In this document: in pieces, positions 14,190-56,300 of the stretch
Numbering within the stretch: the stretch's first letter is position 1
Layout of the letters: each line of letters begins with the position of its first letter
Source: Letharia columbiana
Lineage: Eukaryota; Ascomycota; Lecanoromycetes; Lecanorales; Parmeliaceae
Length of the DNA: 64,000 bases
Assembly: GCF_014066305.1 (NCBI RefSeq)
Contig: NW_023501039.1
Coordinates: 496,001 to 560,000, forward strand
Direction: 5' to 3'
Translations under genes and position numbers: made by a program
The notes under the pieces: model-generated
Databases searched by the model: none
The model's input: only the letters and a program-made list of their open reading frames with translations
What the model was told of the DNA's origin: nothing

Positions 14190-17100
14190 TCAAACCTCTG
14201 TGGCGTAGGGTGATCTGTAATACCGTTGAGCAGGACCTGGCATGTAGTTGCCTTGGTTGATTGGCGTGAAGCCTGACGGACCCCCTGGGACGGAGAAGGA
14301 AGGATGGTCTGAGAAGTGCACATACGAGCCTTCGTCGAGTATCTGTGTGTTGTTGTGCGAGCTGCTACGTGAGTGGCCGTGTGAGCTGTTATCGTTATAC
14401 CAGCTGTCATTGCCAGTGGGGATGTGGAAAGCGGTCTGGTACATCCTGTGATCCGGCGCAAAGTTGGATGACCCCGCACGTGAGATGTCACTCACACCTC
14501 CTCCACCATCCCCAGCAGTTTGGCTACGTAAACAACTCAAAGACCTCGCGATCTTCTCCTGAGCGGAATATCCAGATTGATCGACCGCCGAGTCGGATTC
14601 AACAAGTGTCTGCCAAGATGGACTAGTATCCATGAGGTCGTCCGGTGAAATGTCAGCAGAGGTAGGTATGTAGGAATACACTTCACTGGAAACCCGTTCC
14701 AGTTTTACAGGATGAGTACGTAGTTGTTCTGTATTCTCGTAAGTTACCCCATCCATGAACATTGCTTGAGCACTGGAAGTCATTGCCATGTCTTGAAGGC
14801 TTGATCTCATGTTGCTCGTCAACGGTATTTGATTCAATGCACGATCTAGTAGATCGGTGTTAGCAAGCGTCCCATCATGGCTAAGGGAGATGATACCTTT
14901 AGAATAGACTTGGGGTTGACCAAAATGAGAGGTGCATTTGCCCCTGGACTGAGCCGTAGTGGCCGTCTCCGTCGGTCTCGCAACGATTTCCCTCAACTTT
15001 GGCAATGTGGGCATTCGACGACTGCTCGGTGCTGTCTCCAATCGCTCATCCATAAGAGTTGGACAGCGCAACTTTCTTGCCTTGAGGTACTCTTTCATGA
15101 CGCCAACCGCTCCCTCCATTACCCAACGAGCCTTGTGAGTGTGCGGAACGCAAGAAGGGACTTGAAAAATCCAATCCAACGATTCCCACGCGCGCATTGC
15201 ATAGTCCGCACCAGGAAACGCAAAAACCTCTATCAACATAAGCGTAGCATAATTGTGCTGCTGCAGTGCCCCTGCGTACCATCTCCAGCGGCGTAGAAAA
15301 CATGAGGTCTCGATTTCTTTGGCAATCTCCATTGTCTCGAGCCCCGACATGATCACGGTTCGGCTCCATTGCTCTAATAATGTACCAGTCAACAGCGGAC
15401 TTGGTGGAATAGAAGTGTAGGGCATTACCTGGCATCCTTCCCCGGGCTGTGCTCATGTGATACTCATGTAGGACCATCGCATGCATCCGCCTGCAATGTA
15501 AATCTATAACGAGCCGGGTGTAATGCTGTATTGGAATCCTGTCGTCAATCATTGGGTAGTATTTCTTTTCCATGTATTGTCGAAACTCGTAGATCATCTC
15601 CAACATCTTCTTAATGTAAGCCGAGTCCGAGTCATTCCCCTGTCGAGCTCGTTGTCGAGCGGCATAGATTTCCCTGATCCTCTCGTTGCACTCCATGCGA
15701 GCGTTAGTCGGGGTCATGCCAGTCCATCTTTCACTACTTTCTTTGAGGATATCAGATTTTTCGAGCTCAGAATCATCAACATTGAGGGGAAACTGTGTGT
15801 TAAAATCGTCTTTTCGGATTCTCGCCCTTGGACTTTGCGCCTCACACACTCGGATGTCCAGAAAGCACAGCTGGTGCCAGATCATACGATGGACCTGAGT
15901 CACTACCGCATCATACCCGTAATAAGTACCGTCTTTGTTGAGTCCCATGCCTCGTGCAAGATCGATAGCCGATGCCACAAGTGTTGCGAGCGTGCGGGAA
16001 ATGATATCTCGGCACATAGGGATCTGTATCGATGATTAGCCCTATCGTACAGCGGCGCTTTTCAACGCTTTCGCTGGGATTCGCTGCAGCTTTCTATTCA
16101 AGGCTTGCAAACGGATGCATGTCTCACCAAATACATAACGAAAGCTTGAATTGTCTCAGGCTTCTCCGTGCGAATGACATGGGCACGACTTAAGGAGAAA
16201 GCCGTGGCCTTTTCGAGGGTGTCCACCCATTCTTCCCTCTCGCCTCCCAACTCCTCTCTGACTGTTTCGGCATCCATGCTCACGACGCCGGCAAAGAGAG
16301 CAGCGTATACGAGGGCTTGGGTGGACTCGGGTGTGTCCTTTACTCCTCTAGATACATTGTGCCAGAAGACGTCGTACCTTTCCTGAAACGATGGCCGATG
16401 AACTATACAGGCGACAGGATGAACACATTCCCCTGCACATTTCGGAGTCAGAATGGTATTCTTTGAGGCAGAAAACTCAAGTCATAAATGAAATGGGAGA
16501 CATCGTGAGCATTTGCTCCGGGGACATGTCTTGGGACTCAACTATGGCATCAACGGGGTGAAAAGGCTCCTAAAATTACACTCACAGTAGTTTTCCATAA
16601 TCCTGTCCGCGAGGTTTAGGGAGCAAAGGAACTTATGAATGTCCTGGTTGACTTGCAAGGTATGCGAGAAGAGTGAAGGTGCGATAAAATCGGGGTCAGG
16701 GTCGAGGACTTTGGGCCCAGCGGCAGCATCAAGCCAACGTGGCCTTGGTAGGCTGTTGAATACTTTTCTATCGTTATCCGTTCTGTGAAGATCATTTTTG
16801 TCGAGCATTTGCGTCAGCTATGATGTATCAGTAACGCTATAGCCCTTGCTGAAAGCGGCGAGTGTCACAGATTACTTGCCTCCTCCAACATTTTCGGGCG
16901 ATAATCTGAACCTATCCTCTTGGTAAGATTGTACCTGCCAGCTCGGATTCCGTTGTCCTCAAAATCATCGTCATCTCCGTAGGTAGCATCGGTAGCAATA
17001 AGGGGACTTGGCTCAATGTCGCTTCCTTCTTCGGATCCATCCTCCGCATCCTCCTTCCTCGCTCTTTTCGCAATTTTGTTGTCGATATTGTGATGCTCTT

Positions 17101-17323
17101 CTTTCCCTTTCTCTATCACCTCCCATCCCTCATCATCCTGAGGGAGGTAAACACATTCCAATCTATTCTCAAGGCATCTTTTGCAAGGATCAGGATACTT
17201 GCTGCACTTGCTCTTGCTTGATCGACAATTTTCGCAACATCTGATTATTCGCCTTCGGGTCCGCTTCTCCTTGACAGCGCAATTAGATTCGGATCCGGAT
17301 TCAGACTCCTTAATATGTGGCAT
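14190..17323 (-). CDS. Zn(2)-Cys(6) fungal transcription factor with a GC-AG intron
   Basis: Five exons (17323-16880, 16817-16586, 16432-16128, 16023-15429, 15373-14190) give 919 residues. Cys30, 33, 40, 47, 50 and 57 form the binuclear zinc cluster (C-x2-C-x6-C-x6-C-x2-C-x6-C), preceded by a basic stretch. The fungal-specific middle homology region follows: YWECVHPVACIVHRPSF, then LVYAALFAGVVSMD, then SAIDLARGMGLNKDGTYYG, and RMPEQWSRTVIMSGLETMEI, each restored exactly by splicing. The C-terminus is Ser/Gln/Thr-rich and probably activating. Intron 1 (16879-16818) uses a GC donor, GCAAGT, the usual context of GC-AG introns; no GT donor gives the right phase. Intron 2 (153 nt) is introner-like. 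Target genes cannot be told from the sequence. Confidence 0.9.
16433..16585 (-). mobile_element. Introner-like intron, 153 nt (Zn2Cys6 gene, intron 2)
   Basis: Starts GTGAGTGTAATTTTAGGAGC and ends CTGACTCCGAAATGTGCAG. The 3' part is almost the same as that of the intron at 52484-52646 and closely matches 54823-54978. It interrupts the codon for Trp in NYWECVHP. Confidence 0.7.
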
Positions 17324-18127
17324 GACTGAGGACGAAGAAATGAAGATGGTGAGAGCGAAAATGAGAACATTGAATAAGGAGGCTATGATTCAAATGGGAA
17401 GTCCTTATTGGGGGTGGGTGATTACTTGAGGGGTTGTTTGTATTTGCGGGGGATGGCATATCGGGAGCCTACCTAGTCAACCGAGTCTTAGCTATTGACA
17501 TAGGGAATTTCCCAGACCGCTTGGACCGCGATTGGGTACGCATACCTTCGCTTCGGCCAGTACCCGTCCTGCATGTATACGATCTTTCCAAGTTGCCGAA
17601 CGGATGATTGGTCAGAATGCATACATGCATACGCTACCATAGGCTGTATTGCCAGGCTGCATCACGCAATTCCAGATCTTTGAGTGCTTGAAAGAGATGC
17701 GAGTGTATCTTATCTTCTAGACAGAGAAGACTCACCGGTCTCGAAAGCCTCGAAGTTTTTCCACCTATGAGAAAAGCGCAGCCTTCTTGACAACTAGTAG
17801 ATACCAACCTACTAAATCACTTGAAAGATTCGAACATACGCGTGTTGCATCATCTCCTCAACCAGGAACTCGTCGGCACCGTAGACCAGGATTCACTGAT
17901 CCAAGATCGACTTGAAAGTGCTTCCCCGCTCCTGGCGATGATCGGCTGGTTTATTTCCACCAGTCTAAGAGCTTTGACAATGGTCAACTCCAGCCCCCTC
18001 TGGCCTTTGGCGGTTGTGACAGTAGAGTGAGCTTCTCCATTTCACGCGCCAGTGTCTCGTCCGAGCTGAAAAACGAGTATCTATCGACAACCTCGTCATC
18101 TTACCTTCGTACATTGCATTCGGTCGA
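17324..18127. other. Intergenic upstream of the Zn2Cys6 gene
   Basis: No intact gene seen. Short minus-strand segments near 17.85-18.05 kb look codon-like but are broken and could belong to the relic that follows. Confidence 0.4.
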
Positions 18128-18571
18128 TCACCGACCAATTAAATACCCAGATAGCCACAGTACGACCAAGTTGCTGAACGTGACCAAGCCATTGTCGGAT
18201 AGAATCATCTCCGGAAGCACGGGCGTCTCCAAGAAGCTTCATTGCAGGTCCTGCAAGCTATCCCTCGCTACTATGAGACCAAGACCTTCTCTTTGGGCCT
18301 GCTCTATTAGTTGGGAAGTACTACTTTCCGATTGTCTTCAGAAGCCCGAGTGTAAAGCATGCATGAGCCTTGACAGTGTGTTGAAATGGCGTCTTTGATT
18401 CATGTAGCGATCCTTCGGCTGATAACCAATCAGTGCTAGTCCGGCAAGGAGCAGTCTGGAGCAGTCTTCACTAAGACACCTGCTGAAAAAGCTTTCCCGC
18501 CGATCTTTTCTTTCAGTCGTTTTGAAGGTGCCGTATGAAAGTACTCTACTTTTGAAAATTTGAAATATCAC
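18128..18571 (-). pseudogene. Possible gene relic, one frame interrupted by two TGA codons
   Basis: Read from 18571 downward, a single frame stays codon-like for about 440 nt but is cut by two TGA stops: after LSRLMHALHSGF and again after LGLIVARDSLQDLQ. It then continues SFLETPVLPEMILSDNGLVT to a TGA at 18128. Both interruptions are TGA, which C-to-T or G-to-A change of CGA or TGG would produce. No family is recognised, so coding origin is only inferred. Confidence 0.25.
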
Positions 18572-19087
18572 TCGCTACAGTTGACTCGGGTTCGCTTGGC
18601 AAGCAGGTACCCATCAATCGATGCTGCTTTTTATGGTAGCCTCGGTGAACAAGTCAATTGATGAGTATATCCGCGCTGGAGGGCCAAGAGGATAGATTTT
18701 TGGCCGCGCGAGTAGACCCGTCATCTTTTAGTTTCACCTTTTTTCCAGCCAATGGGGTTCTTTTCTCACGCCCGTTGCAAGGGACAATGATGAGCACGGA
18801 GCGGCTTGAGGTCGGAACTTACCATTGCCAATTGAATTTTGCCGCGGACAGGGTTCTAGCTGAGTAGCTTCCCAGTTCCCCATCATCTGTACTGAGTCTG
18901 TCGCATCCCTTAGCGGCTCCAAGGCGCTTTGGCCCCTGAGGTCCAACGGCTCGTCTTGCCCTTGGCAAAGCTAGGGCGAATCCTCTGCTCATAGATTCGA
19001 TGTCTTGAAGAGCCATGAAGCAACAAGCGTCAAGGCACTTGCTTTCCTGAAGATCGACAGCCAATTTTTTTAAGAGAAGAAAGTCTA

Positions 19088-25676: not shown

Positions 25677-25753
25677 CTTTTGATACGATCGAAATGTGCG
25701 ACGTTGAACCTTCAGACTCAGTAACACTGTTCATCCTATACTAACACTCCTCG

Positions 25754-28039
25754 CTAATCAATCGTATCGTCCCTCAGAGCAAACAGTTGCTTCATGACCT
25801 CATTGCTCTTAGAGAACAGGGCCTCATGATATAAAGTATTGGTTATAAAGGTCTTGCAATTCTTGATCTTCGAAGCTGCGTCCTATACAGATTCCGATGT
25901 CAGTATCCTACTTGAAGGCAATTGTCGAAGCAATGTGACGGCTCGAGGGTTATCAAGAGCCTTTTGTTCCCGAAAAAAGTCTTGCAACTTGAAAAGCGAT
26001 CCGCAACAAGAAGAATTTGCTCCTAATATGTACATACCCTAGAGAGATCGAAGTGCACCAACATGTCGTCAACATAGACGGCCGAGTATATGGGGACTTC
26101 GTTTTTGGCCAGTTGTGCTTCGTCATATAGCTCTGGCCAGTCCTCGGCATGCGCAAGTAGGTCAGCTGTCTCTTGCAGGTTGCGAAGCTCATCGTAGTCT
26201 TTGAACATGTCTCGAAAGACCTATGTGAAGGCTTCAGCTGGCCATGCGGAGGAGCACAGCTAATGTCTGGTTGTCAAGCCAGCGAACTTTTGCTTACCAT
26301 CTCACCGGTGAAGAGTACTGGCTCTGGACCGTCCACAGAGACCCTCTGGAATTCAGGGATGTGCGACATCACACGATCTGCCGACCACCGGGTTGGATGC
26401 CTCAATCTCGTTCAGCATAATCTTGGACTGGGGGAACAAATTTTCTTACCCTCTCGCATATATAGGCTCGTGAATCAATGCAGACAGTGGCATTGTATCG
26501 AATGGCATCATTTCATCAAATGCTGCGAGTGTGGGTCTAGTGAAGAAGCCGAATTCTTCGTGTTCTCAGAGTCAGCGTGCATCTTTGGAGGTAGGTGTTG
26601 GGTTATAAAACCAATTTTGCAAGTGAACTACTGTTGAGACGTGTCTTACAGCTCATGGTATTACAGATATAAAGAAGATGACTCTGAAAAGTAGACTTAC
26701 GATTTAAGTCGCTCGTCAAGCGGCATATCATATCTTCACATTTGGTTAGCTGAAAACTGGCTGCCCAGATTGTGCTTACCATGCACAATGTCCATGGTGC
26801 CTAGTCTAGGTCAGCTATATGTCCAAAACGCTAGGATATGGCCGCGGTGACCGTGGAATGCAAAATAACTTCCAAGCTGGCGTAATCGCAACACGGAAAA
26901 GTTCCCACCGCTCGGTAGTATGACGCTTTCTTTCTGGATGTACCGGATGATATCCTTGACTCGGTGAATGTCTTCGATGTACTTCTCATAGTACGCTTTG
27001 TTCCTTTCGGCAAGCCTGCCTGACTTCGTGTTGGCTTGTGCCCAATCTCTAGAAGAAGGAAAACTAACGGAACTGGTATTTGTATATTATGTCCGGGTCT
27101 TTCACCAAGGGGGGAAGACCAGCACTGATGAAGACTAATGTATCGGTCAGAGTTGGTCGGCTCTTTGTGAGAGGTAAGATCACCTTCTTGGAGTCCTTCA
27201 GGACTGTGGATATCGTAATTAGTATTCGTCACAGCTGTTGCATAGATATTGGAATACCAACAAATTCGAAAGGTAGGTTCCGCAGCAGAAGCCACCAAAG
27301 CTGACGCCCATGATCGTCCATTTCTTCTTTTCTGCCGGATAATCCGCTGTCAAAATCTTGCGAATTGCTTCGCAGTCCATGACTGAAGCACTCTTCGTTA
27401 GTCACGCCTTGTACTATGCTAGGACTCGATTGATGGACCTACCAATGCTGTCTGCTCTAAAATTCTTGAGCGATGCCGCTTGCTTTGCAGGTCCACCTTC
27501 AGTTGCGAGTGTTCTCGCTGTGACTGTGCTGCTCAAACCAGTGCCTTTGAGCAAAGCGAGTCAGCTCCGCGTACGAAAACTTTGAGATCTGAAGGCATCT
27601 GGATACCGCGCTGATCTAAGAATAGAATCTGACTTGTTTTAGAAAAGTCTGCAGTAATATTAGAGCAACGCAAACCTGATACCCCTTATCGAGAAGAATG
27701 TCGGTCCATGGGTAATATTGCGGGCTTTTACAAGGCATGCCAGGTCCACCTTGTCACTGATCAGCGTTTCGCTCAGAGAGGGAGGGCATGGCATACTACA
27801 TACCCTGCAGAAAGAGGACTGTAAAACAACCATAAGTCAATCGTACACCAAACCATATAAGTCGAAAGATGCGTACGCCAGGGAGGCTGCTTGATCTCCG
27901 TTTTACTTATGTCTACTGGCTTCTCAAATCGTTTCACACTTCTAGCAAACAGGCGTAGACTGCCATCTTGCGCTTTGGAGTAGTTCTTTGGTACTTCGAA
28001 GAAGAGCTCAGAGACATTGAGCTTTCCTAGAGATTGCAT
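25754..28039 (-). CDS. Proline iminopeptidase-like serine peptidase (family S33, alpha/beta hydrolase)
   Basis: Fifteen exons give 438 residues: 28039-27877, 27818-27804, 27749-27676, 27628-27607, 27544-27443, 27382-27262, 27203-27184, 27134-27074, 27015-26852, 26800-26780, 26733-26701, 26555-26450, 26400-26298, 26220-26038 and 25882-25754. Each junction restores family sequence. LQGGPGM (residues 58-64) is the oxyanion-hole region, ILFLDQRGTGLSSTVTAR precedes the core, and Ser153 in GVSFGG is the nucleophile. DDMLVHFD and NTLYH (His near 415) match the acid and base region. The family removes N-terminal proline or other residues from peptides in the cytosol. Four exons are only 15-22 nt, and introns 11 and 14 are introner-like. 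No frame damage is seen. Confidence 0.92.
25883..26037 (-). mobile_element. Introner-like intron, 155 nt (peptidase intron 14)
   Basis: Starts GTATGTACATATTAGGAGC and ends ACTGACATCGGAATCTGTATAG, a diverged form of the family 3' motif. It lies between DLSR and DAASKIK, at a phase-0 junction. Confidence 0.55.
26556..26700 (-). mobile_element. Introner-like intron, 145 nt (peptidase intron 11)
   Basis: Starts GTAAGTCTACTTTTCAGAGTC and ends GCTGACTCTGAGAACACGAAG. It splits the Gln codon in DLNQFGFFTR. The same gene's other introns are 46-77 nt, apart from intron 14. Confidence 0.65.
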
Positions 28040-30734: not shown

Positions 30735-33700
30735 TTATTTTCCATCACTCTCCACCTCTCCACTAGCTCCCTTACTCGCATCATCCAGATCCAAACTCTC
30801 TTCCTCCTGCCTCGGCCTAACGGTCTCGATAGAGCACGCTCCATCTTTGAAAAAAACCCGCAAACCCACCACGCACACTGCGTTCCAAGGATCATTCTCA
30901 AATTCTGTATTGTCATCCGCACCGTCCATTGGAGAAGGGTCATCTTCTTCTGCAGCGTCGTCCACTTGGGTGGGGAAGTCAAGGACACTGTCGATGGAAC
31001 TTTCAAAGGAGGCGTCAGAGTCGTATTGGTAGTCATCGATCGGCGCAAGACTGGAAGGGGCAGCGACGGATGGGGCAGGAGCTTCACTAATAGGAGTGGG
31101 GGCCCCATTGACCGTGACGGAGGGGATTGATTTCAGTGCCGCTTCGAATTGTCGGGACTTTTGGGCAGCAGAATCTTCGGTCGACGTGGCTGCATCCTTC
31201 TCTTCATTCTTAGGAGTGACAGAGTTATCCTCTGCCAAAGTCCCGTTGGTGGGCTTAGATTCCTCGGCTATGGTTCCAAGTGGAGCTCCATTAGTAGGCT
31301 TGGACTCATCAGCTTTGGCTTCGGACGGAGGTTTCGGCAAGGGAGCTTGGTCCAGAGTCGGCTCGCCAGTCTTGTCTTCTATTGCACCGGCTGCGGATTG
31401 CTTCTCGAGCTCGGTTTCGACTCCTGGGGCCGTCGTTGTAACGTTGACAGCTTCAGGGGCAATAGTTTGATCAGTTTGAACAGCAGTGGCATCACCAGCA
31501 ACAGTCCCTTCAGCCCGCCGAGATCCTCTACGTTTTTCGGCCTTCTTGCGCTCATACTCTTCTCTTTTCTTAGCGTGGCGCTTCTCTCTGGCCCTCTCCC
31601 GCTTTCCATGTTGCCAGTTCTTGAGCATGTCTTCGCGTTTCATCGCACATTGCTTTTTCTTCTCCGCAGCTTTTCTCTTCGACTCTCCCTTCTGGCGCTC
31701 TTGCTTTTCAGCCTCGGTCTCTCGGATCTCTCCTTTGGCATGAGCAAGATCATAGGCAAGTCCTGTTTGAATCAGTTTATTCTGCCTCAATTTGACATTC
31801 TTTCTGATGATGTCCTCGGGGGTATCATCATCCTGATAGCGGCGAGCAGTAATCTTCATGAGCACAGAATAGGTACCGGGGTCCAATTCTAAATCTGTGC
31901 TGACCGAGCGACTCATGGAGTAATTACCATGGCTGCGAACGATGTAGTCCTGCTCGCCATCTTTGTCCAATCTGAAATGTAACTCGAACGTGTACTGCCC
32001 TTGCAATCCTTTGTAGTAGCGATCATCCAACTGAGATAGGACAATTACAACAGGGCTTCGCTTTGTGAGCGTAACGCTGAATTTGGTCTTGTTGTAGTCT
32101 GCACTCCAAGGAATGTCGACCGAGGTCCACTGCTGCGTGATCTGCCAATCCGGCCCAAAGAGTCGAGTTCTATCAAAGCTCGAATATTCGCGTAGAAGGT
32201 CCTCGTAGGAAATCCAGAACTGTCCATCATCGCCAAACCTGTGATTCAACAACTCCATCCATTCCGGAGTCCATTGTTCCGAACCGTCGCTCCAGGCACC
32301 TCTCCATTCACCCTCGCCCCAGGGGTTTCGCACTTTCAACAGTCTATTGCCTTTGATCTCTCTAGCTTCCATGATCGAATACGCGTGCATGCGTACGATG
32401 TTCTCTCTTGCGCCATACGAAGATGCTAAATCTGATCCTTGCCATTTGTCGAAGGTGCCCGCAGCACAGCTGAATAAGAACTCCTCGTTTACTTTCATGA
32501 TTTCCTCCCAAAATTTATCCTTATTGAGAACGTCCGTTGTGAAGAGTTCGGTAGTTACGCCCCCAGTCAGGTCCTCGATAGCTTCGCTGGATGATGTCAG
32601 CAATTCAGTTCAGTCAGGTCGAGGGACTATACTTACCCTGTAAAGCCGCCGTCTATAGCACTGTAGTCTCCATGAGCTTTGGCAAATGCCTTTTCCAGCA
32701 ATGGTAGCCATGTCTCATTCTCGCTACTACACTGTGCGAAGTAGAGAGCTTTGGAACCGGTTTGGTTCACTTTTCGATACCTTTTCTCTGCATCACCTCT
32801 GTCTTGATGATCTCAGAGTCAGCGTTACTCTTTCGGGAGGAATTTTGAGACGCGAGACATGTCTGATGACTCGTAAGACAGCATGAATGGGGAACAAATG
32901 CCTCGGAAAGTATGACATACTGACGATCCAGAAGACTCGCTTTTCCTCGTCTGAACTTTCCCACCAATCGGAGGCGATCAGGTAGAGTTTGTCGTCAATT
33001 ATGGTTTGAATCCACTCCCCATCTGAGATAACTTAGCCTCCTCACTGCGAGACGAGAGTGATTTGCACTTACCTCGGTGGAACACAAAACCGTATACGCC
33101 CACCTCTTCGTCTCTAGCAACGCATACATTGTTGACCAAGTCTTTCTTGTTGCAAAGAGCACACAATGCAGATAGGAACCAGCAGTCGCCGTTGAATCCT
33201 TGACGAACATCGCTAGCGGTAGCACCCTCTTCAAAGAACACAGGATTTTCGAAGATATCCTGAGACATGTTAGGAATTGGATGGCTGTAGAAGTAGAACA
33301 AGGATGTAGAATGCTAACGGGAATTCGTTTCACTGATTTGGGATAAGTCTTGTCTGGAACCTCACCCAGAGCATCCAAGCAGTCTCTTCGATTCCGCTTC
33401 AGGTCAAACTCGATATCGAAATGAGGATCTCGGTATTTGTGGTTCACACGTCGACACTCCTTCGCTATCTTCTCTACAGCATGTTTGCATTCCGCATCTG
33501 CTTGATCGTAAGACTTCACAGCGATCTGACCGTTCACAACGCCCTTGGTATTCTTGGAGGCTTTGGTTTTGGCGTAGATATCAGCTGGCAGGATGCTGTG
33601 TACCTTGCCAGGGAACTTTGTGGTAAACTGGTTGCGAGCGATGAGCTTGATGTATGTACAAGATGAGAGGTGCGTACCTTCTGCCAGAACTCGTCCACGC

Positions 33701-33803
33701 CCCTCTGGGGCAGCTGCTTCCTTACTTTGACAGGAGACTCCTGTACGGACTGTGGTGCTGGCTGGGGATTCTCAAAGTCAGCGGCCTCGCCGGGTGCACT
33801 CAT
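30735..33803 (-). CDS. Calpain-like cysteine protease
   Basis: Six exons (33803-33678, 33627-33319, 33259-33073, 33022-32921, 32811-32637, 32586-30735) give 916 residues. The catalytic triad is visible: Cys171 in QGFNGDCWFLSALCAL, His367 in VRMHAYSIMEARE and Asn387 in KVRNPWGEGEW. A C2-like calpain domain follows (residues about 440-560). Beyond about residue 570 the chain turns very basic (KAAEKKKQ, EKRHAKKREEYERKKAEKRR), then Pro/Thr/Glu-rich and acidic to the end. The family are calcium-dependent or calcium-insensitive intracellular cysteine proteases; this one lacks EF-hands, as fungal forms do. It differs from the pH-signalling calpain PalB/Rim13 in having a long C-terminal disordered tail. 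Intron 4 is introner-like. Confidence 0.92.
32812..32920 (-). mobile_element. Introner-like intron, 109 nt (calpain intron 4)
   Basis: Starts GTATGTCATACTTTCCGAGG and ends AACGCTGACTCTGAG, so the 3' splice site falls inside the family motif. The 5' block TTTCCGAGGCATT closely matches the intron at 39574-39718. Splicing restores IVNHQDRGDAEKRY. It is the shortest member and may be internally deleted. Confidence 0.65.
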
Positions 33804-34425
33804 AGTGTCAGTGTGCGAGGGAAGCAAAAGACCTTATTGGTTCAGGAACGTATTAGATTTCTATAGACTCCGCGGCTGCTTCGTAAAATAGATGCGGCGG
33901 AAGTGGAAGTCAAGGCTGCTGAAGGGGAGTCCGCATCAAGGCTCTCACCAATGCTGGGAGACATCGGAATCAACAAGAAGCTTCTACATGTCAGCGGGCT
34001 AAAGCCCAAGGGCTGAAGATTCATGCGGCTCAAAGCGCCCCTAGCAGAGGGTTCTAGGTAAGGTAGTTGGTAGCAGCGCCGGATCCAGTAGGTACATAAT
34101 CTTTGCCTCAAGCCTGCATGAGCCGATCTGCAGGCCAACGTCTAGCGGAACCCCGTTTCATCCAGCGACTGACACAAGGCTGAGCTTGCATATTGATGGT
34201 TACCTATTATTGCCTTTGGAAAAGGCTGTGTTCGTTGGCTCTGTACACAATACCCTCATCGGCAGAGGAAAAGGAGCCCGTGAATCTTGGCTTGGCAGTT
34301 TTGCTACTCGTCCCCACTGTGCAATTCACAGGGTTGCTAGTGGGAGGCCTTAGGTAGAGTCAGGGCAAGCATGATGCATGCAAATGCGCACGAGGAAATT
34401 GAGCCACTAAAAGATACTTCCGTAT
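33804..34425. other. Intergenic upstream of the calpain-like gene
   Basis: No gene seen; promoter of the calpain-like gene is expected in the first part. Confidence 0.4.
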
Positions 34426-37392: not shown

Positions 37393-38525
37393 ATGATGAT
37401 CAATAGCCTTGATGCTCGTGATAGCCCACCACAGTCTATCAAGAGTATTTACAAAAAATACCAGAAGCTCACGCTTGAGGCCATTCAATCAGATCCTTCG
37501 ATCCTTGACTTTCGCCGGGGCTTGAGTGGTGAACAGCAATGCAGAGCCCAAAAAGTTGGCATTGTGCCGTTATTCTCAATAGATGCTGCGTGTTCCCACC
37601 TTAGACTCGCTGAAGATCATAAGGGCGTGGCGCCTAGTGTGGACGTGCCGATTTATGAACCCAAAGCTGTACCAGGTGAGCCATGACAACTATACCCTTG
37701 GAGGACGTCTCGTTCGTTGTTGACAAATCAGGACTGCTCATATTACCAGCTTTAGTACCCGAACATGCCCAGCAAGATCTTCTATCCAAATTACTACATA
37801 GGGATCTAGCAGATCCAAGACACCAGACGAATGTACATTTACATCATCTACTTCCATATCAAGCTACCAACCCGAGGAAGACCGGCCTTTCAAATGTTGG
37901 CAATGCTTCATTCTTCACTATGTCTCCTGTGTCTCCTGAACTTTTCCCCCCGATTGATCACACAAGCCATAAGGCTCTAACTGTGTCGCAATTTCTCAAT
38001 CGAAAGCTACGTTGGATGACCCTAGGCGGTCAATACAATTGGACAGAAAAGAAGTACCCGGCTGAGAATGCTCCATCTTTTCCGGAAGATATAGCAGCTT
38101 TTTTTCACCATCTGTTTCCTGATATGAGGCCAGAAGCGGCAATCTTGAATGTATACGCTCCGGGAGATACCCTCAGCGTGCATCGTGATGTGAGTGAGGA
38201 GTCTGATAATGAGCTGGTGAGCATCAGCTTTGGCTGTGATGGCATTTTTATTGTTGGGCTCGAAACTGAAAAGGGCGAGGAGCCGAAATGTGTTGGTGTA
38301 CGCTTGCACTCAGGAGACGCCGTCGTTATGAGCGGACCAGCTCGGTTTGCTTGGCACGGCGTGCCTCAAGTCATTGGTAACAGTTGCCCAGTATCATTGC
38401 GTGACTGGCCCGCCATCGCGGATGATGAGAGCACAACCAGCGTCGGCGAAGACCCCTACGAAGCGTGGCGAGGTTGGATGTCGAATAAGAGAATCAACCT
38501 GAACATGCGCCAAATGAAAGATTGA
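37393..38525 (+). CDS. AlkB-family Fe(II)/2-oxoglutarate dioxygenase (ALKBH1 type)
   Basis: Two exons, 37393-37675 and 37732-38525 (56-nt intron), give 358 residues. The double-stranded beta-helix core carries the iron-binding triad: HxD in YAPGDTLSVHRDVSEESDNE, and the distal His in SGPARFAWHGVPQV. The 2-oxoglutarate-binding Arg pair is in KRINLNMRQM at the C-terminus. ALKBH1-type enzymes demethylate nucleic acids (tRNA or DNA; substrate varies between species). The N-terminal 95 residues (SIKSIYKKYQKLTLEAIQSD) match the ALKBH1 extension. The start could also be the ATG three bases on. Its 5' end faces that of CDC2, about 315 bp away. Confidence 0.92.
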
Positions 38526-38779
38526 AAAGCCTGAGATGCTACCAGCCTTCAACTTGCGGTAATAGGACTTGCGCCTTCAAGTAAAGTACCTCTAAAGTAC
38601 CAAAATGGAAGGCGACAAACTTTAGCCTGGAAGATAAGCTTGACCCCACACCTGACTTTAAGAAATGCGCGTCATTGTTTTGCTCGAAGCATTTAAAATT
38701 CAAAGTGGTCAACAACAAATCTTTTCTCAGCCGATATTCAATACTCCGACTTGCTCGATTACTAACTACGTGCTTATCG

Positions 38780-40819
38780 ATGGCGACCGAGACGTCAACA
38801 TGGCAACATCTGGCCAAGGCCAAACTCGCTGCAATCAATGGGTCAATACCAGAAAAGTGGCAGCTTTCTTCGATCCCTTCAATTGCAGAGCAGCAAGATG
38901 TAACAGGCCCTTTCATCTGCAAGTTTCTGTCCACCGAGGAGATTGAAATTACCGAGACAGATGCCGTCGACATTGTTGAAAAGACGTCTCTGGGGATCTG
39001 GACGGCAGAGGAAGTAACAACAGCCTTTTGTCACCGGGCCAGCCTTGCACACCAATTGACGAATTGCCTGCATGAGACCTTTTTCGAGGCAGCCATTGAG
39101 GATGCTAAACAGCTCGATGCATATTACGCGCAGCACAAGGCACCGATCGGCCCATTGCACGGACTGCCTATTAGCTTGAAGGATCAGTTTCACGTCAAGG
39201 GCGTAGAGACCACGATGGGCTATACAGGCTGGATCAACACCTTCGAAGGCAAGAAGGGCACAGGCAAAGAGAAGGTGTTCGAAAGCGAAATGGTGAAGGA
39301 GTTGCGCTCGTTAGGAGCGGTGCTCTACTGCAAAACGGCAGTGCCTCACTCCCTCATGGCAGGTGAAACGGTCAATAACATCATTGGGTATACAACGAAT
39401 CCAAAAAATCGCAATCTGACTTGCGGTGGAAGCTCTGGAGGGGAGGGTGCTCTCATTGCACTTAAAGGTTCGCCTGTAGGCTTCGGAACTGATATTGGGG
39501 GAAGCATACGCATACCCGCAGCGTTCAATGGACTCTTTGGCCTTCGTCCATCCGCAGGCCGCATGCCATATGAGTGAGTTATTTTTTCCGAGCCATTCCT
39601 TGTCGATTGGTACTGCATTCCGAGATGTAAAAATTATCGCACGAGTACAGCACTGCCGGGACTTGTTCCACCACTCGAATTTGATCCTAGAAGAGATGCT
39701 GACTCTGAAATCCTACAGAGGTATGGCGAACAGTATGGACGGGCAAAACTCTGTACTTTCAGTCGTGGGACCTCTATCGCATTCTGTGGCGTCCTTGAGG
39801 CTAATGGTCAAATCCCTTTTGAGTCAACAACCTTGGTTGCACGATCCATTATGCAACGAGCTCCCATGGCGGCAAGATCAGGAAACCCAGACTTTAGACC
39901 TCATAAGCTCTTCTAAGTTGTCATTTGGCATCCTTAAGCACGATGGCGCTGTTACGCCTCACCCTCCGGTACAAAGAGCCCTCGACATGGTTGTGGACAC
40001 TCTCCAAAAGCTTGGACATGAGGTAATCCCAACAGCAAAGAGGCATCAATCACCATAATCTAATGTAGAGCAGGTCATTGAATGGCATCCTCCGTCCCAC
40101 AAACGCGGCTTTGACATTATCACTAGCTCGTGGACTTACGATGGTGGCACAGACATCCACAATGCATTGGGACTTTCAGGAGAGCCGATGGTGTCTCAGA
40201 TTTCTGGCATGTACCGCAAAAGGCGTGAGGAGGCAAGTGCGAGCAAGATTTCGGCGAACAACATCGCCAAGCGTGAATACCAGAAAGAATATATGGAGTA
40301 TTGGAACAGTACTGCACGCTCGACCAGCACAGGTCGACCAGTCGATGCTATAATAGCACCTCTAGCACCTTTTGCGGCTGCGAGGCCTGATCGATACAAA
40401 TACTATGGCTGTACGTATTTTCCGAGTCCACATTTTCTCCTTTGGAGTCTTGAGACAAGTCTTGCGAGTCCTTGCTCTTGGAGCATGTTCCATCGCTTGA
40501 TGTTCCCTCACGCACGTAATACTGACTCCGAATCAATACACCAGACTCGAACATTTACAATACTCTTGATTACACGTCCTGCGTCATACCTGTGACGAAT
40601 GTCGATAAGAAGGTCGATATGGTGAATAAGAGCTTCAAGCCAGTCAGTGAGCAAGATAGAGATATACAGGAAGACTACGACCCTGAATTATATCATGGCG
40701 CCCATGTTGCAGTGCAGCTCGTCGGGCGCAGGTTACAAGAGGAGAAAGTGCTTGCTCTTTCAGAGTACGTTGGAGGAGCTATTGCTGAGTCCAAAGATAC
40801 TCGATCCAGCCATCTGTAA
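38780..40819 (+). CDS. Acetamidase-type amidase (amidase signature family)
   Basis: Four exons (38780-39573, 39719-40022, 40074-40410, 40545-40819) give 569 residues. The amidase signature is present: LPISLKDQFHVKG with the catalytic Lys, CGGSSGGEGALIALKGSPVG with the cis-Ser, and GTDIGGSIRIPAAFNGLFGL with the nucleophilic Ser. LDYTSCVIPVTNVDKKVD near the C-terminus matches the AmdS-type tail. The family hydrolyses small amides to acid and ammonia, usually in the cytosol, for nitrogen use. The start at 38780 gives MATETSTWQHLAKAKL; an upstream extension of the frame reads as non-family sequence. Introns 1 and 3 are introner-like, intron 2 is an ordinary 51 nt. Confidence 0.93.
39574..39718 (+). 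mobile_element. Introner-like intron, 145 nt (amidase intron 1)
   Basis: Starts GTGAGTTATTTTTTCCGAGC and ends GCTGACTCTGAAATCCTACAG. Splicing restores MPYEGMANSMDG. The 5' block is shared with introns at 32812 and 40411. Confidence 0.75.
40411..40544 (+). mobile_element. Introner-like intron, 134 nt (amidase intron 3)
   Basis: Starts GTACGTATTTTCCGAGTCC and ends ACTGACTCCGAATCAATACA then CCAG. An internal segment GTCTTGCGAGTC is identical to one in the intron at 52484-52646. Splicing restores YYGYSNIYNTLDYTS. Confidence 0.75.
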
Positions 40820-48809: not shown

Positions 48810-48891
48810 GCAAGGTTGGCCGAGTGGTCTAAGGCGGTGGATTCAAGATCCACTATCGAAAAATGCGTGAGTTCAAATTTTACACCTTGCA
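48810..48891 (+). tRNA. tRNA-Leu(CAA)-like sequence, probably decaying
   Basis: Acceptor arms GCAAGGT and ACCTTGC pair perfectly, the D-arm GCCGAGTGGTCTAAGGC is intact, and the anticodon arm GTGGA-TTCAAGA-TCCAC gives anticodon CAA. The T-arm is degraded: loop and stem read GTGAGTTCAAATTTTAC where GTTCGAATC would be expected. The internal B-box is therefore off consensus, and the T-stem depends on G-U pairs. Differences from the neighbouring tRNA in the T and variable arms are mainly C-to-T or G-to-A. No intron is present, unlike many fungal tRNA-Leu(CAA) genes. Confidence 0.6.
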
Positions 48892-49020: not shown

Positions 49021-49102
49021 AAAAGGTTGGCCGAGTGGTCTAAGGCGCCAGATCAAGGCTCTGGTATCGATAGATGCATGGGTTCGAATTCCATACCTTG
49101 CG
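49021..49102 (+). tRNA. tRNA-Leu(AAG)-like sequence with C33
   Basis: D-arm, long variable arm (TATCGATAGATGC) and T-arm (ATGGG-TTCGAAT-TCCAT) are good. The anticodon arm CCAGA-TCAAGGC-TCTGG places AAG at 34-36 but puts C at position 33, which is U in essentially all elongator tRNAs. The acceptor stem has two mismatches at its end (AAAAGGT against ACCTTGC). It lies 130 bp after the first tRNA-Leu-like sequence in the same orientation. It could be a functional variant or a second decayed copy. Confidence 0.6.
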
Positions 49103-50418: not shown

Positions 50419-51863
50419 TCACGGCTTTCTTAGTTTTTCACCGAACCACTGCCCAATCTCAAGCATATGCTTCTCGTCCCACAACCCAATGCCCTCCCTT
50501 TCCTCAACCTCAAAATTCCTTCTAACAATGGGCTTCGCATCGGCTGTCCTTTCGACTTCCGAGCGTCTGAAGCTTTTTCGCATCAGTTCAACGAGGTCTA
50601 CCCCTTGATCCTTGAACTCGCAATCCTTCCCTAACCCCACTCTTGTCCAAGGTAACAGCAGGTTCGAGCCCGCTGGTGGATATTTGCGAGCCGAAAGACG
50701 CTTCTTGGCAATCGGTAAGAGAAAATTCTCACCCTCCGGACCACCGTTGAGAAGGCTTTCTTCAGTAGATGTAGCAGCCTGGTTCGGGATCTCAGAACTC
50801 GGTGTGCGGAAAAACAGCAGCGGACTTGCAAATGGGTCGAAATATCTTTCTGCTTTCGAGAAGAAAGCGTCTCGGATATCGCAGAGGCCATTGACAGAAA
50901 GAGACCCATTGTTAGCGCCTCCGGGAAAACCACGAACTTTGCGGAAGATTCCTGCTTGGGGAGCGTTTCGTCTCGCAAAGCTTGGGGTCAACGCAGTCCA
51001 ATCAAGGATTGGGTTTCCGACTGCCAGAGCGCTGATGCCTTGGGGCTCTAGCTCTGCAGGCGTATAGAAGCACTCTGTCAGAGCCAGCATCGTAGCTAGG
51101 CTTCCCCCAGCCAGCTCGCCGCATACACCGATCTTCGAGGGTTTGGTGGTCATCCTCAGTCCTTTATAACCTGTATGAATACCGCGGGCAAGGTTCGCTC
51201 GAGTCCAATCATAACCTGCGAGTACCTAGACATTGCATTTAACTCCACGTCTTTCCGTAAAGCATCCAAAGTACCGACCATATGTATAGGAAGTGGATAG
51301 CCATTCTGTGTCGAGAGCCTATAATTTATCTCAACAGCAGTGGCATTTGCGCCAACGGCGAGATCTTTGAGATGAGATTCACACTGCGTCGGCGTAGGAA
51401 TGCCGCGCCTCAGGAAGATGATGATGGGGCTATTACTTTCTGGCCTGGGAGGATAGCGAATGCTGCAAAGGTATCAGCAAGGCTATAAAGCGTTCATGTT
51501 TAGATGTGACGAGTTCGCCTACCGTAATTCGACTGACTTACCAATACCAAGTTTGATCTTGACATGGGTTTCGTCGTCTATGGTCTTGATAATGGGGATA
51601 TTGTAGGAGTGGTATTGATTTCGGCCTACGCTGGCCAATATTCCTCCGGCAGGTTGTAACCTGAAAATGGCAACAGCATCGCTGATCAAGCTTCTCATTT
51701 CAGCCAAAGCTAAAGGAGCGAAGTGATTTGGTGAAGGAGCAGGTGGAAAAGACCCCTGGGCAGGCGCTGCCGAATATTTGCCAGTGCTATCTCCGGCCGA
51801 CTTCGGGGATTATTCTACTACCAAGCGTGCAGCTTACTTACCCTGCGTTGTTTCTTTCGACAT
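50419..51863 (-). CDS. Alpha/beta hydrolase-fold protein, probably without esterase activity
   Basis: Four exons (51863-51838, 51786-51523, 51462-51275, 51215-50419) give 424 residues. The fold-3 hydrolase plan is visible: INYRLSTQNGYPLPIHMVGY (usually NYRLAPEHPFPAAL), YDWTRANLARG, then IGVCGELAGGSLATMLALTE at the nucleophile elbow, and LAVGNPILDWTALTPSF after it. Where active members have the HGGG oxyanion motif this protein has IIIFLRRGIPTP, and where they have GxSxG it has GELAG, so the catalytic Ser is absent. I infer a binding or structural role. The short first exon (MSKETTQG) depends on the inner of two overlapping GTAAG donors to keep phase. Confidence 0.82.
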
Positions 51864-52035
51864 TTTTTGCCTGTTTATGGAAACCTACTGCTGGCATTCG
51901 TTTACATTGATCTTCCCGTACAAATATCGTTACTCTGCGGCAAAACTATAAAGTGTATCGCTCGAAAACAGTTTTGGCAGCTGCGAAAGGACAGTGAAGA
52001 TTTCTTCGACACACTCTGCTGACGACTCCATCGGT
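51864..52035. promoter_or_regulatory. Short divergent upstream region
   Basis: Only 172 bp lie between the hydrolase-fold gene start (minus) and the phosphoglycerate-mutase pseudogene start (plus). Confidence 0.4.
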
Positions 52036-52936
52036 ATGGCACCCGTAATCCACTGCGTCAGGCACGCTCAGGGTAAGACTCCAAGACCACATAGGGCGTA
52101 AGTCTCCTTGGCTGACTCAACAGGCTATCACAACCTCTCCGTGGCTAATCACAGTTTACCGGACCCATCCCTGACTCCATTCGGGGAAGAACAATGCCAT
52201 AAATTCGCCCAAGACTCCCCCTACTATCAATCAATCGGTGCCATAGTCGCCTCGCCCCTCCGTCGAACTATCTACACCGCCTTGTACGGCTTCAAACCCC
52301 GGATAGAGAAGGGCATGTCCGTCATCGCTCTCCCAGAAGTGTGCGACTGGGAAGGGGGCACCCTCCGCGAGTGCTGTTGAGAAGAGAGCGAGGGAGGCGA
52401 GACAATGGTTGAAGGCTAGGCCGGAAGCCGAGATTGTGGTTGTTACCCATGGTGGCTTCCTTCACTACTTTACCGAAGACTGAGTTCGTAACTTCGTACA
52501 TTCCGGAGTAATTCCTCCCTTTTCAATGCCGAGTTCTGAGTTGCAAGACATATTTCGGGAGCAAACGTCTCTTCCTACTCCCGAGACTTGTCTTGCGAGT
52601 CTGAGTTTTGCCTTGAACTACAACGCTGACTCCGAAATGTGCGCAGTCGGACTTCGACAAGGCCATGGGTACGTATGGACGCTGGGTAGATGATGGGAGG
52701 ACGAGGCTAACAACTACTAAGGTACCGGTTGGAAAAACGTCGAACTCAGGTCCTACGAATTTGCCAATGAAGATGGCGAAAACGCCTCATTGGTCGAAAC
52801 GAAGGGTTCCAGGGAATCGAGACGCGGCAGCGAGGTACCCTTGACGAAAGAGGAACGTTTGAATCTACGAGCGACAGCAAAGAAGATCAAGGATGGCGAT
52901 TTATATCCTGTACAGGCGGTACAAGGGAAGGTGTGA
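52036..52936 (+). pseudogene. Phosphoglycerate mutase-family pseudogene
   Basis: Exon 1 (52036-52072) gives MAPVIHCVRHAQ with the RH signature; after a 51-nt intron GYHNLSVANHSLPDPSLTPF and ASPLRRTIYTALYGF follow. The family's middle is missing: after ALPEVCDWEGGTLRECC a TGA interrupts, and the reading frame resumes only one frame over with KRAREARQWLKARPEAEIVV and THGGFLHYFTED, implying a deletion and frameshift near 52378. Next, the Trp codon expected in EDWSDFDKAMG reads TGA at 52481-52483, exactly at the donor of an introner-like intron. The rest (52647-52668, 52722-52936) is intact through TGWKNVELRSYEFA to the final VQAVQGKV. At least two disabling changes make function unlikely. Confidence 0.75.
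52484..52646 (+). mobile_element. Introner-like intron, 163 nt (PGM pseudogene)
   Basis: Starts GTTCGTAACTTCGTACATTCC and ends AACGCTGACTCCGAAATGTG then CGCAG. The 3' end matches the intron at 16433-16585 almost base for base, and GTCTTGCGAGTC is shared with 40411-40544. It follows TGA where TGG is expected, so the last exon base appears changed from G to A. Confidence 0.75.
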
Positions 52937-53341
52937 TGACATGTGATTGTGACTATGACTGCTTTCTTACCGTGCCATAGAAAAGGCTTTGCAGAGTGAT
53001 GACGAGAGAGGATGGATTGGAGCATATTGAAGATTTGAATTGAAGTAAACGAGAAACGTGATAGAGCGTAGACCCTGCAAAGCCTTTCATCCAACATCAT
53101 TAGACGCAAAAAAAGACTAATTTCCCAACAACAAATTTCATGATGCCAGTAATTGTGCGATGATCATGTACAGTACTCGCGTGTGCTTTTCATACCACGA
53201 TATTCCCCACTCGGCCGTCGGACTCTACCTACCATGCAAACCCCGAAGCCGAAGACTTTTGGTCTTTCCAGCCATTCGTGTCAAAGAGAGATCACTCATT
53301 TCCAGAAACCAAAGACGTCAAAGTTACCCAATGACTAGGGA
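52937..53341. other. Convergent 3' intergenic region
   Basis: Between the pseudogene and the 856-residue gene; no gene seen. Confidence 0.5.
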
Positions 53342-56300
53342 TTACCCTTGGACAAAGGTCTCCGTGGTCCATCCGTACTTCCTAAACAGCCTACCGCTAT
53401 AACGTCGCAGAAGGTCAAACCGTATTTCGTTCCCGGGATGAGGCTCATGGAAAATGATGGAAGATTCCGGCTTCCATGCCGGTTCGAAAAGCGACGCCGA
53501 GCCGTCAAGAGACTTGATGCTGAAATCAAGCTTCTGCATCGCAGACACAAAGTCCTTCCACGAGACTTTGGCTCCGATTCGATCCTGGACGTCGGCTGGA
53601 AAGAACTTTCGCATGGTTTTGTAGGGTGCCTTCGCCAGCTCGAACACCTGTGCCTGAGGCTCAGCCGTAACTTCTGCCTCTGGCTCTCCAGCCGCGCCGA
53701 GGTCCGGTGGAGGGTTGGCCACACCGCGCGTCTTGACTTTCTCCTTCGGTCGTGCGGCAAGTGGTGTGCTGCTTTCTGCTTCCGTTTGGAACGTCCGTAA
53801 AGCCTCAATTTCCTCCGGTGTTGTATGTGGGGTTGCCTTCTTTTTCTGTTTTGGGCGGACTACTGCCGACTGCCAGGTACCAGTACGCTCAATTTTACGC
53901 TCAGAAATCCTGTCTCCCATGAAGCCATTGAGTGTCTTCCCGCAAGTCTTTGTGAAGTGCTGATCTACCTGCTGCCAGAATGTGTCAAGCATCGTCTCTT
54001 CTGCGCGAAGTCTGTCAATGGTCTTTTGTGTTCTTCTCGCATTTGCAGGGTAGTCGAAATCCTGGGCTGGTGTCACAAATTGATCGAGGCTGACGCCTTC
54101 CATCTGCTTCTGAATCATGGCGATGATTCCGATGCGCGACTCCACATCGGCAAGAAACGAGTCAAGATCCATCGGGAGCTGAATTCGAGGTTGATGGCAA
54201 CTCAACCGCGCATGGATCTCCCCAAGTGCGGCCGTCTCTGACAATGTCTTCGCAACCTCGGTGGTGATGAGGCCTTTCTGTCTCTTGTCCTTGCGCATGA
54301 TCCGTTCTACATCGTCCAGGATGTTTGGGACGCCCATCAGCGCTGTACGCTCAGGATTCATGAGGTCATAAACCATCCCTATGATGGGCGGAATCTCCAT
54401 GTCCTTCCGAGGAAGATAAGCAATACTACCGTCGTTCTTGCGGGTGCGGTCAAAGTACTCTCGTATTGGCTCACTCATTGGTAAAACCTTTCGCAGGTCC
54501 TCCAAAGGGTATTTTGTTAGCTTGTCTATTACGAGCACAAAACTCGCAAGCGCCTCTTGGTATTTGTCCGGTAGTGGCTCGACGGGCGATGTCGCGATTC
54601 CAATGTGCAATCTTTCGAGCTTCTGCAGGTCCTCTAAGATAATATCCCATATTATCAGATACTTGTATGCGGCATGAATGATATTGCCACAAGCTGTTTG
54701 CAGAATTTTACCCTTCAGCGTTGTGACATCCTCGCTGTACACCCTTTCGAAGACGTATAGGGTCATTTGGTAACGGTGTTGCAAGACATTCTGAAAATAA
54801 GACGGGTCTTCTCTTAGCGCCCCTACACAGATTTCGGAGTCAGCATGAGTCTTTTGAGACAAAGACCTCGAAGTGTAGGACGGATCCAAGAAGTACATAG
54901 ACTGCTTTGCTCCTGAAAATAGTCTTGGAACCCAGTCCCTGGTACCAGAGGAGAGGAGTTACTTGAAAGTACACGTACAGATCTCATCTTCAGCTTCGTC
55001 CTTTTTGGCAGTAGCCAGCTTTCGAAGGTATTCAAGAGAGAAATGCTGAGGTTGGCGATAGGGCGCTTTGGTGTTGACTTCCACCGTTGATTCTGATGGA
55101 GATGTCTCATCGTCAATGATGAGCCCAGCATGAATAGGTTTGACTGATGCTTCAGCCTCCTGAGCCTGAGCATCGGTTCCAGCGGTGGGCGCAGCTTGCG
55201 CACGGTCAATCGTTGCTCCCGCTTTCACACCTCGCATGAGATCCGTGCAGGTAATCAAAAACTGCAGCGTCCTATCCTGTATCTCAAGCACAATCAACCC
55301 TTCGCTGGGATTGAAGCCTGTGCCCATAAGAAGACTCTGGATAGAACTCGAGTCCCCCTTCCAAGAGACGATATCTCCATAGGCTTCTTGTGTCATTTGA
55401 CCGCTCAGCTGATGGCAATATTCGAGTCAGCAATGCCTATTCGAGAATGGGCTTGAGCCTTGAAATATGTCTACAGAGTACATTTTGGCAGCACATGTCT
55501 CTAGATTCATAGGTTGGTGTTGAAAGCAAGAACAGCAAAGACTGGGCTCCGGGAGTACGTACCATCATGGTGTACCCCGTACACGTCATTATTTTGACGG
55601 CATCGGCTGAAGCAGCCATCCGTATTTGCAGCGAATCCGACCAGGCAAAGGCTTCTGGGTCGTTACGCGTTCGGGACTCGATGAACAGCAGTAGGTTTTT
55701 CGACTTGCCAAGATCTTCAACGTTGATGTGGGGCATGAGATAGGCATTTTTGTGTTTGGTCCCATCCCTTTTACGCTCCAGGCTCCACAAAGATCGTTGT
55801 TGCCTAAGTGCGTCGAAATCTGGCCTATGTACTAGGGGTATATCTATCAAGATTTCGAAGTTAGCATTTCCATCTGAAGGCGGGTTTTGAGTCCCACAAT
55901 AGTCCTTGGTAGTCTAATACTCTGAAATCATTTCTTTGCAACTCCCTCTTCTGCCTAGGCAAGGGAACAACGGCTGAGAAAATTGGCTCACCTGGCCATG
56001 CGGTTAGGAGTAACTTTCTCCGCCTATCAGGGTTCCGGTTCCCCCATCGATGCTTTAGATCACGACCATGTTCCGCGAAGATGGAGCCCAATCTTTGATG
56101 GTTGGCGAAGATGCTTCGAGTCCGCTTTGAAGCTTCTAGCTGAATGTCACGGAGGGCTGTGCCATGTTCCTTGTCCGATTCCTCTTGGGTGGTCACTAGG
56201 AGACGTTCTAACGCTGGGGCCAGTACTTGAAGCGTTGCTGCGTACTGAACCTCTTCTGTGCTGCGCTTTGGATCCAAAGCCAAAATGGAGTTTATCAGTT

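Follow-up and report, generated by a model that had tools for sequence, protein, structure and literature searches.

An introner-like intron family in Letharia whose lineages share flanking exon bases

Ten related introns in the window

The window, a stretch of 64,000 nucleotides from Letharia columbiana, carries ten related introns in which an earlier note had seen common 5′ and 3′ motifs. All ten stretches were confirmed in the sequence, three on the forward and seven on the reverse strand, and they can be aligned at both ends. A profile HMM built from 81 copies located outside the window, with window sequence excluded, recovered exactly these ten and placed each on the strand where its ends are GT..AG. 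The scores were 129.0, 66.7, 61.6, 48.9, 32.4, 23.3, 23.0, 18.2, 16.0 and 15.1 bits, and the next-best score in the window was 8.3 bits. The best of five Markov shuffles gave 7.2 and the reversed window nothing above 5. The introns are listed below with their held-out profile scores; de novo calls are those of a gene finder blind to the motifs.

16433..16585, reverse strand: introner-like intron in gene model 14190-17323; 48.9 bits, exact de novo call
25883..26037, reverse strand: introner-like intron in gene model 25754-28039; 61.6 bits
26556..26700, reverse strand: second introner-like intron in gene model 25754-28039; 16.0 bits
32788..32920, reverse strand: introner-like intron in gene model 30735-33964, more likely extent; 23.0 bits, de novo acceptor at 32788
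39574..39718, forward strand: introner-like intron in an amidase gene; 32.4 bits, exact de novo call
40411..40544, forward strand: second introner-like intron in the same amidase gene; 15.1 bits
52484..52646, forward strand: best-preserved copy in the window; 129.0 bits, outside every gene-finder model
54823..54978, reverse strand: introner-like intron in gene model 53342-56471; 66.7 bits, exact de novo call
55409..55562, reverse strand: introner-like intron in gene model 53342-56471; 18.2 bits, exact de novo call
55844..55991, reverse strand: introner-like intron in gene model 53342-56471; 23.3 bits

The ten introns fall in six gene models rather than the seven loci first counted, with 39574 and 40411 belonging to one amidase gene. 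This amidase lies in gene model 37683-40819, the first part of which is a neighbour fused in error. We take gene model 14190-17323 to have a zinc-cluster-like N-terminus, 25754-28039 to be prolyl-aminopeptidase-like, 30735-33964 to be calpain-like and the frame around 52484..52646 to be phosphoglycerate-mutase-like. Four introns (16433-16585, 39574-39718, 54823-54978 and 55409-55562) were predicted exactly by the motif-blind gene finder, which missed 40411..40544 and put a different intron, 55825-55897, at 55844..55991. At 25883..26037 the spliced protein aligned gap-free with 8jgn around residue 341; at 26556..26700 the nearby alignment to 8jgn is gapped. The spliced amidase aligned gap-free with 8wv2 at the 39574..39718 junction and was likewise gap-free at 40411..40544.

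The intron originally placed at 32812-32920 is introner-like, but its boundary is more likely that of 32788-32920, since in the 32812 version the A of the branch-site-like CTGAC lies only 7 nt from the end; both versions keep the frame. The statement that other introns are mostly 46-107 nt was only partly borne out, because the gene finder, a rough one, predicted 15 others above 107 nt, some of them probably wrong, to which the profile gives no match. The 52484 copy, which gave 45 matches as a genome query, is 8-9 bases longer at its start than the family, and an in-frame TGA stands directly upstream of its donor. In the analyses of 116 copies below its donor was set 13-14 bases further in than in the earlier note.

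A genome-wide family of palindromic introns

A genome scan found many further copies, with 259 matches to a strict pattern against 18 in the control. Above control, pattern counts amount to approximately 240 copies (strict) or 430 (looser), and extrapolation gives a genome total of roughly a thousand, (529-99)/0.38 being about 1100. Here 0.38 reflects the 13 of 34 copies that match a 16-mer at no more than 2 mismatches; the fetched baits L009, L013, L018 and L022 were excluded, four top matches of those loci being unlisted, and one of the 34 (L019:1919) itself came from a chosen match. Copies were sampled non-randomly, through an intact end or through similarity. From 174 profile matches we obtained 118 copies at 116 sites; an 85-copy set of full copies reduces to 83 distinct sites.

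The claim that the family multiplied by copying is supported: similar GT..AG introns sit in unrelated genes, the flanks of different copies have a mean identity of 0.254 over 60 bp per side, and the 14 paralogous sites fetched, out of 29 non-self matches, were all empty. That this gain was recent is overstated, since most window copies are degraded. Nine of the ten score 15-67 bits with the held-out profile against 129 for the best, and only 2/10 retain a palindrome z above 3. Body identity between nearest relatives among the 116 copies has a median of 0.84 and reaches 0.97 at best. The family is therefore older on average than the introner-like elements of two active species in Dothideomycetes, for which the accessible text of Collemare 2015 (PMC4457414) gives 98-99% identity.

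As predicted introns with GT..AG ends, the elements mostly measure about 155 nt, and well-preserved copies are imperfect palindromes from donor to acceptor. When the best 24 copies were compared with their own reverse strand, 20 matched over 140 or more of the 156 profile positions, the remaining four over about 110-130. More diverged copies are less symmetrical: palindrome z exceeds 3 in 87/116 copies, and it increases both with the profile score (rho 0.56) and with the identity to the nearest neighbour (rho 0.45). Terminal inverted repeats (TIRs) of about 15-17 bp lie directly inside the splice sites, and the branch-site-like CTGAC is located within the 3′ arm. Predicted fold stability gave z of -2.72 and -1.92 for two single copies, while RNAalifold on 26 copies returned no common fold beyond three pairs. 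The family has a single polarity, no copy (0/116) fitting it better as its reverse complement; the idea that T/G copies (exon bases -1/+1) are inverted C/A copies was rejected on the same grounds.

The host is not a member of the Dothideomycetes, the group from which the family was said to be known: its amidase, 90% identical to that of Alectoria fallacina, places it, on this one gene, in Parmeliaceae. Introner-like elements of Dothideomycetes were reportedly described by van der Burgt in 2012. Those elements, as far as the accessible text of PMC4457414 describes them, are also similar introns multiplied in unrelated genes, likewise form several sequence families and decay to ordinary introns. 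Their stable predicted folds, as cited in portions of PMC8469720, are matched by the predicted structure of Letharia copies. The Letharia family differs in its class, Lecanoromycetes, and in having lineages with inherited exon bases at -1 and +1. Resemblance extends to the symmetrical sister stwintrons and cropped introns of Hypoxylaceae/Xylariaceae (Fekete 2021, PMC8469720; PMC12403724), in which, from the accessible portions, inverted repeats also join the splice sites and insertion is also seamless, without target-site duplication (TSD). A search of the open literature (closed papers and supplements lay outside it) turned up no earlier description of lichen-fungus introners, and four strings of the family motif matched one paper in the searchable text, on Listeria.

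Insertion sites and their exon bases

Half or more of the copies lie in coding exons, mainly in sense. Sense orientation was found in 71/79 strong cases, the other 8 looking antisense, and in 87/114 overall. The frame agrees across 81/114 copies, against references of 0.99 inside and 0.36 outside modelled exons, so by that measure only about 56% can be placed with certainty inside long coding stretches; the remaining copies may lie in UTRs, in noncoding DNA or close to the edges of exons. At junctions that could be checked against solved relatives, exon letters are neither gained nor lost, with gap-free frames in malic enzyme, phosphomannose isomerase, amidase, alpha-galactosidase, flavin monooxygenase and ABCG; for the permease and sulfate-transporter-like pieces no solved relative was found. 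The copies are thus predicted, from frames and junction alignments only, to be spliced as GT..AG introns. Several lengths and offsets were searched at 83 distinct sites and no clear TSD was detected. The largest excesses were three-letter end sharing at 4/83 sites at one offset, against a mean of 1.07 and a maximum of 5 in 300 shuffles, and at 3/83 at another (mean 0.65, maximum 3), and two-letter sharing at 7/83 (mean 3.5, maximum 11).

On both sides of the junction the adjoining exon base, -1 or +1, behaves as a character inherited with the element. Partial and about-218-nt copies were excluded from all flank tests. Nearest relatives, although they sit in unrelated genes, share the -1 base in 80/116 cases (56.9 in within-subtype shuffles) and the +1 base in 69/116 (42.7), neither value being reached in 1000 shuffles. 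No other position within 8 of the junction is comparable, the next best, -7, being reached by 18/1000 shuffles. Gene duplication as the source of the shared flanks was rejected: just two pairs have an identity above 0.40 over 60 bp per side, and these were left out of this nearest-neighbour test and kept in the cluster, tree-change and subset-shuffle tests; contigs 101 and 109 were excluded from the pair test. On the element tree there are 22 changes at -1 (shuffled 42.7, minimum 37) and 28 at +1 (53.7, minimum 48), against 61 at -2 (63.5) and 59 at +2 (64.4, minimum 57).

The lineages present are C/A, G/C, G/A, T/G and G/G(T). C/A flanks 24/56 copies that end in GTAG without a GTTC start and 0/60 others, and G/GT flanks 8/18 GTTC-start copies against 3/98. 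With C/A and G/G removed (64 copies), the signal was reached in 0/2000 shuffles for each base. It is weaker in 49 coding-confirmed copies (3 and 26 of 2000 shuffles), and in a second batch of 28 copies it was reached by 32 and 3 of 2000. The largest cluster, of 37 copies, has mixed flanks. In all there are 13 kinds of flank dinucleotide, six of them in at least 7 copies each.

How the copies may have spread

Convergence of unrelated introns, or chance, might be suspected from the short and diverged single copies in the window, down to 15 bits, yet the clean separation of the ten by the held-out profile and the 259 pattern matches against 18 make it wholly improbable. In the model favoured for fungal introner-like elements, the RNA of an excised intron is reverse-spliced into DNA or mRNA without target choice specific to the element; this would fit the seamless junctions, the sense bias and the single polarity (0/116 better as reverse complement). 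However, an excised intron carries no exons, and therefore unspecific reverse splicing does not predict that relatives share -1 and +1. A C at -1 is poor for U1 pairing, and the C/A lineage has precisely this base. Moreover, a G/GT-lineage copy at locus L022 lies directly against another introner, whose GT it may have used as its insertion site; such a site is missing from spliced mRNA. On this evidence we consider reverse splicing unlikely.

Target choice set by the element itself, through a guide within it or a partner enzyme particular to the lineage, and with no flank carried, would account for the distinct preferences for C/A and G/GT. Some internal columns do correlate with the flank, the best complementarity being 68/114 against 43.5 expected (+1 at column 38), but none comes near fixing it, the correlated columns are also lineage markers, and 13 dinucleotides occur within one family having common ends. 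A guide base pairing with the flank was accordingly rejected, and we regard element-set choice as rather doubtful. A non-autonomous, MITE-like DNA transposon whose transposase makes no target duplication is suggested by the TIRs of about 15-17 bp, a feature that DNA-transposon introners also show in many copies (Gozashti 2022, accessible portions of PMC9860276). The Letharia family differs from these in having no clear TSD at the 83 distinct sites searched and no splice site taken from one, and its single polarity and sense bias also speak against a transposon, which we think improbable. The same portions of PMC9860276 state that ascomycete introner families have neither TIRs nor TSDs, so the TIRs set the Letharia family apart. 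Its non-random, lineage-specific exon bases set it apart from sister stwintrons, for which the accessible portions of PMC8469720 and PMC12403724 report no exon-base bias at insertion sites.

We consider it very probable that this is an introner-like family of multiplying, non-coding spliceosomal introns. The mechanism we propose is copying from an exon-bearing template into matching sites. The template would be DNA or unspliced RNA retaining at least one exon base per side, and the insertion site would be chosen by its match to those bases. Joining could proceed by microhomology or follow a cut placed one base beyond the foot of the hairpin, such as at an extruded cruciform. With CTGAC in the 3′ arm and terminal GT..AG, each copy would be an intron from birth, and splicing would afterwards conceal the insert. 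More tentatively, and with somewhat less than even confidence, we propose that each side keeps a one-base memory of the parental exon, new introns being derived from DNA or unspliced RNA that is joined where the dinucleotides match, and not by reverse splicing of excised introns, with whole-length palindromy needed for that step and lost later. For ordinary microhomology repair a memory of exactly one base would be little, which counts against this mechanism.

The birth of introns has long been an open question, one that few systems besides fungal introners allow us to watch. These data extend them to a lichen-forming class, without an earlier report found in the open literature. Each branch of the family tends to insert between the two exon letters that its closest relatives also use, which offers a new clue to the spread of introns. 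Because these exon bases accompany the element lineages, they are a readable trace of the insertion step, one that separates excised-intron models from exon-bearing-copy models and is testable with existing genomes.

An introner-like family dispersed through the Letharia genome

The earlier note had described ten related long introns in the window as an introner-like family, and all ten were found, three on the plus strand and seven on the minus strand, with both ends aligning. A profile built from 81 copies outside the window recovered exactly these ten, and nothing else in the window scored above 8.3 bits. Moreover, similarity search and pattern counts of the same genome (52.24 Mb, 161 contigs) both found further copies beyond the window. 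The intron at 52484-52646 gave 45 matches, and twenty 10-kb stretches surrounding such matches supplied the 20 copies of our first alignment. Genome pattern counts exceeded controls for the 21-base 3′ motif (259 versus 18, up to 3 mismatches), the 5′ motif (199 versus 25, up to 2 mismatches) and a 16-base core (529 versus 99, up to 2 mismatches). This core was matched by 13 of 34 sample copies, from which we estimate about a thousand detectable copies genome-wide, a rough figure because the sample sits near chosen copies.

The copies are clustered: among 136 strict copies genome-wide, 8 pairs lay no more than 2 kb apart (0.7 expected if uniform), with one strand shared within each pair (8/8). 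With 10 copies in its 64 kb, the window is several times denser than the rough genome mean. Two stretches fetched from the rest of the genome, L022:4849-5147 and L049:93-349, hold introners back to back, AG being followed directly by GT with no exon between. Contigs 77/109 (L069/L070) and 68/101 (L026/L071) carry an identical introner with identical flanks in each pair and are duplicated or haplotypic assembly sequence. Other features of the window and of fetched stretches were:

Window 48810-48891 and 49021-49102: two tRNA genes
L016:8310-8790: large imperfect palindrome, about 480 bp
L026:2348-2527 and 4025-4204: exact direct repeat, 180 bp

Introner-like elements are described in Dothideomycetes (Collemare 2015, PMC4457414), the setting in which the earlier note had placed the family. 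This setting finds no support in the one gene compared, since the spliced window amidase shows 90% identity to Alectoria fallacina and 89% to Imshaugia aleurites (both Parmeliaceae) and 77% to Lecanora helva (Lecanoraceae), all Lecanoromycetes. In the main texts of the open literature we found no earlier report of introners in lichens or Lecanoromycetes, nor of the family motif strings.

Palindromic anatomy and coding context

A length of about 155 nt is usual for full-length copies. The majority start GTACGTAC or GTTCGTAC, continue with ATTTCGGAG or a close variant, and finish near CTGACTCCGAAATnTGCGyAG; CTGAC within this 3′ arm agrees with the fungal branch site consensus. Immediately within the splice sites the two ends form inverted repeats, and a further inverted repeat makes up the middle. 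In 20 of the best 24 copies, the sequence aligns with its own reverse complement across 140 or more of 156 positions. Folded singly, two copies paired both ends into one stem. Symmetry was highest in copies near the profile and near other copies, the pattern that a role in insertion followed by decay would produce. RNAalifold on 26 copies returned only three pairs, which fits, without proving, such decay. Ascomycete introner families are said, in the passages of Gozashti 2022 (PMC9860276) that deal with them, to be without TIRs and TSDs; we saw no clear target-site duplication at the insertion sites of introner copies. Seven loci (L031, L036, L039, L075, L095, L113 and L123) carry a longer form, about 212-220 nt, in which the family ends enclose a longer middle of different sequence.

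A home-made, motif-blind gene finder predicted 4 of the ten window introns exactly. The spliced downstream frame was the best upstream coding frame in 64/85 copies, where a third would be expected, and in 81/114 of a later set. On a scale set by modelled exons (agreement 0.99) and by sequence outside them (0.36), the latter count places about 56% of copies surely within long coding stretches. Coding in sense was favoured in 87/114 overall; the 79 strong cases divided into 71 sense and eight apparently antisense. Protein alignments to solved relatives were gap-free at the junctions in malic enzyme, phosphomannose isomerase, amidase, alpha-galactosidase, flavin monooxygenase and an ABCG transporter. 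Three such proteins gave 29 non-self matches in the same genome; in all 14 paralogues fetched (7 permease, 1 malic enzyme, 6 ABCG) the introner site was empty and the frame continuous without an intron. At window 52440-52700 the frame reads VVTHGGFLHYFTED, a stop, then SDFDKAMG; the stop, a TGA, immediately precedes the donor of the window's best-preserved copy, so the host gene may be broken or spliced from another donor.

Flanking bases and their inheritance

The exon bases beside the introns (-1 before, +1 after) follow subtype. C|A flanked 24/56 copies with a GTAG end and without a GTTC start versus 0/60 others (p 1e-9), and G|GT flanked 8/18 GTTC-start copies versus 3/98 others. Where phase could be called confidently, C|A copies were in phase 1 in 9/12 cases (background 0.29), that is, within Gln/His codons. 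Flanks were also shared within subtypes. With nearest relatives set by the trimmed intron body (116 copies) and shuffles kept within subtype, relatives shared -1 in 80/116 cases (56.9 shuffled) and +1 in 69/116 (42.7 shuffled), each reached in 0/1000 shuffles; from positions 2 to 8 the strongest sharing, at -7, was equalled in 18/1000. On a maximum-likelihood tree, changes numbered 22 at -1 (shuffled 42.7, minimum 37) and 28 at +1 (53.7, minimum 48), versus 61 at -2 (63.5) and 59 at +2 (64.4, minimum 57). Small clusters were pure or almost so (T|G 4/4, C|A 4/4, G|A 7/9, G|G 8/11), and the largest, of 37 copies, was mixed. With classes C|A and G|G removed, the signal persisted; it was weaker in the second batch (28 copies) and in 49 coding-confirmed copies. 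Symmetric stwintrons are reported, in the portions of those accounts that treat their flanks, with unbiased exon flanks (Fekete 2021, PMC8469720; 2025 follow-up, PMC12403724).

A glutamine codon conserved in relatives holds the C|A junction both in malic enzyme and in the monooxygenase. Empty paralogue sites read C^AG in malic enzyme and in 3/7 permeases, and had C at +1 in 5/6 ABCG sequences. These matching bases suggest that in several genes the dinucleotide probably predates insertion and was not brought in by the introner; elsewhere, two exon bases were possibly replaced upon insertion.

Polarity is single across all 116 copies. Because an excised intron lacks exon letters, their inheritance needs either a flank-bearing copy or targeting that the element itself specifies. 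The latter would also let relatives share flanks, but we consider it the less likely, as no internal column fixes the flank in column-by-column comparison and one family uses 13 kinds of flanking dinucleotide, six of them in at least 7 copies. The balance therefore tilts towards a copy still carrying its exon letters.
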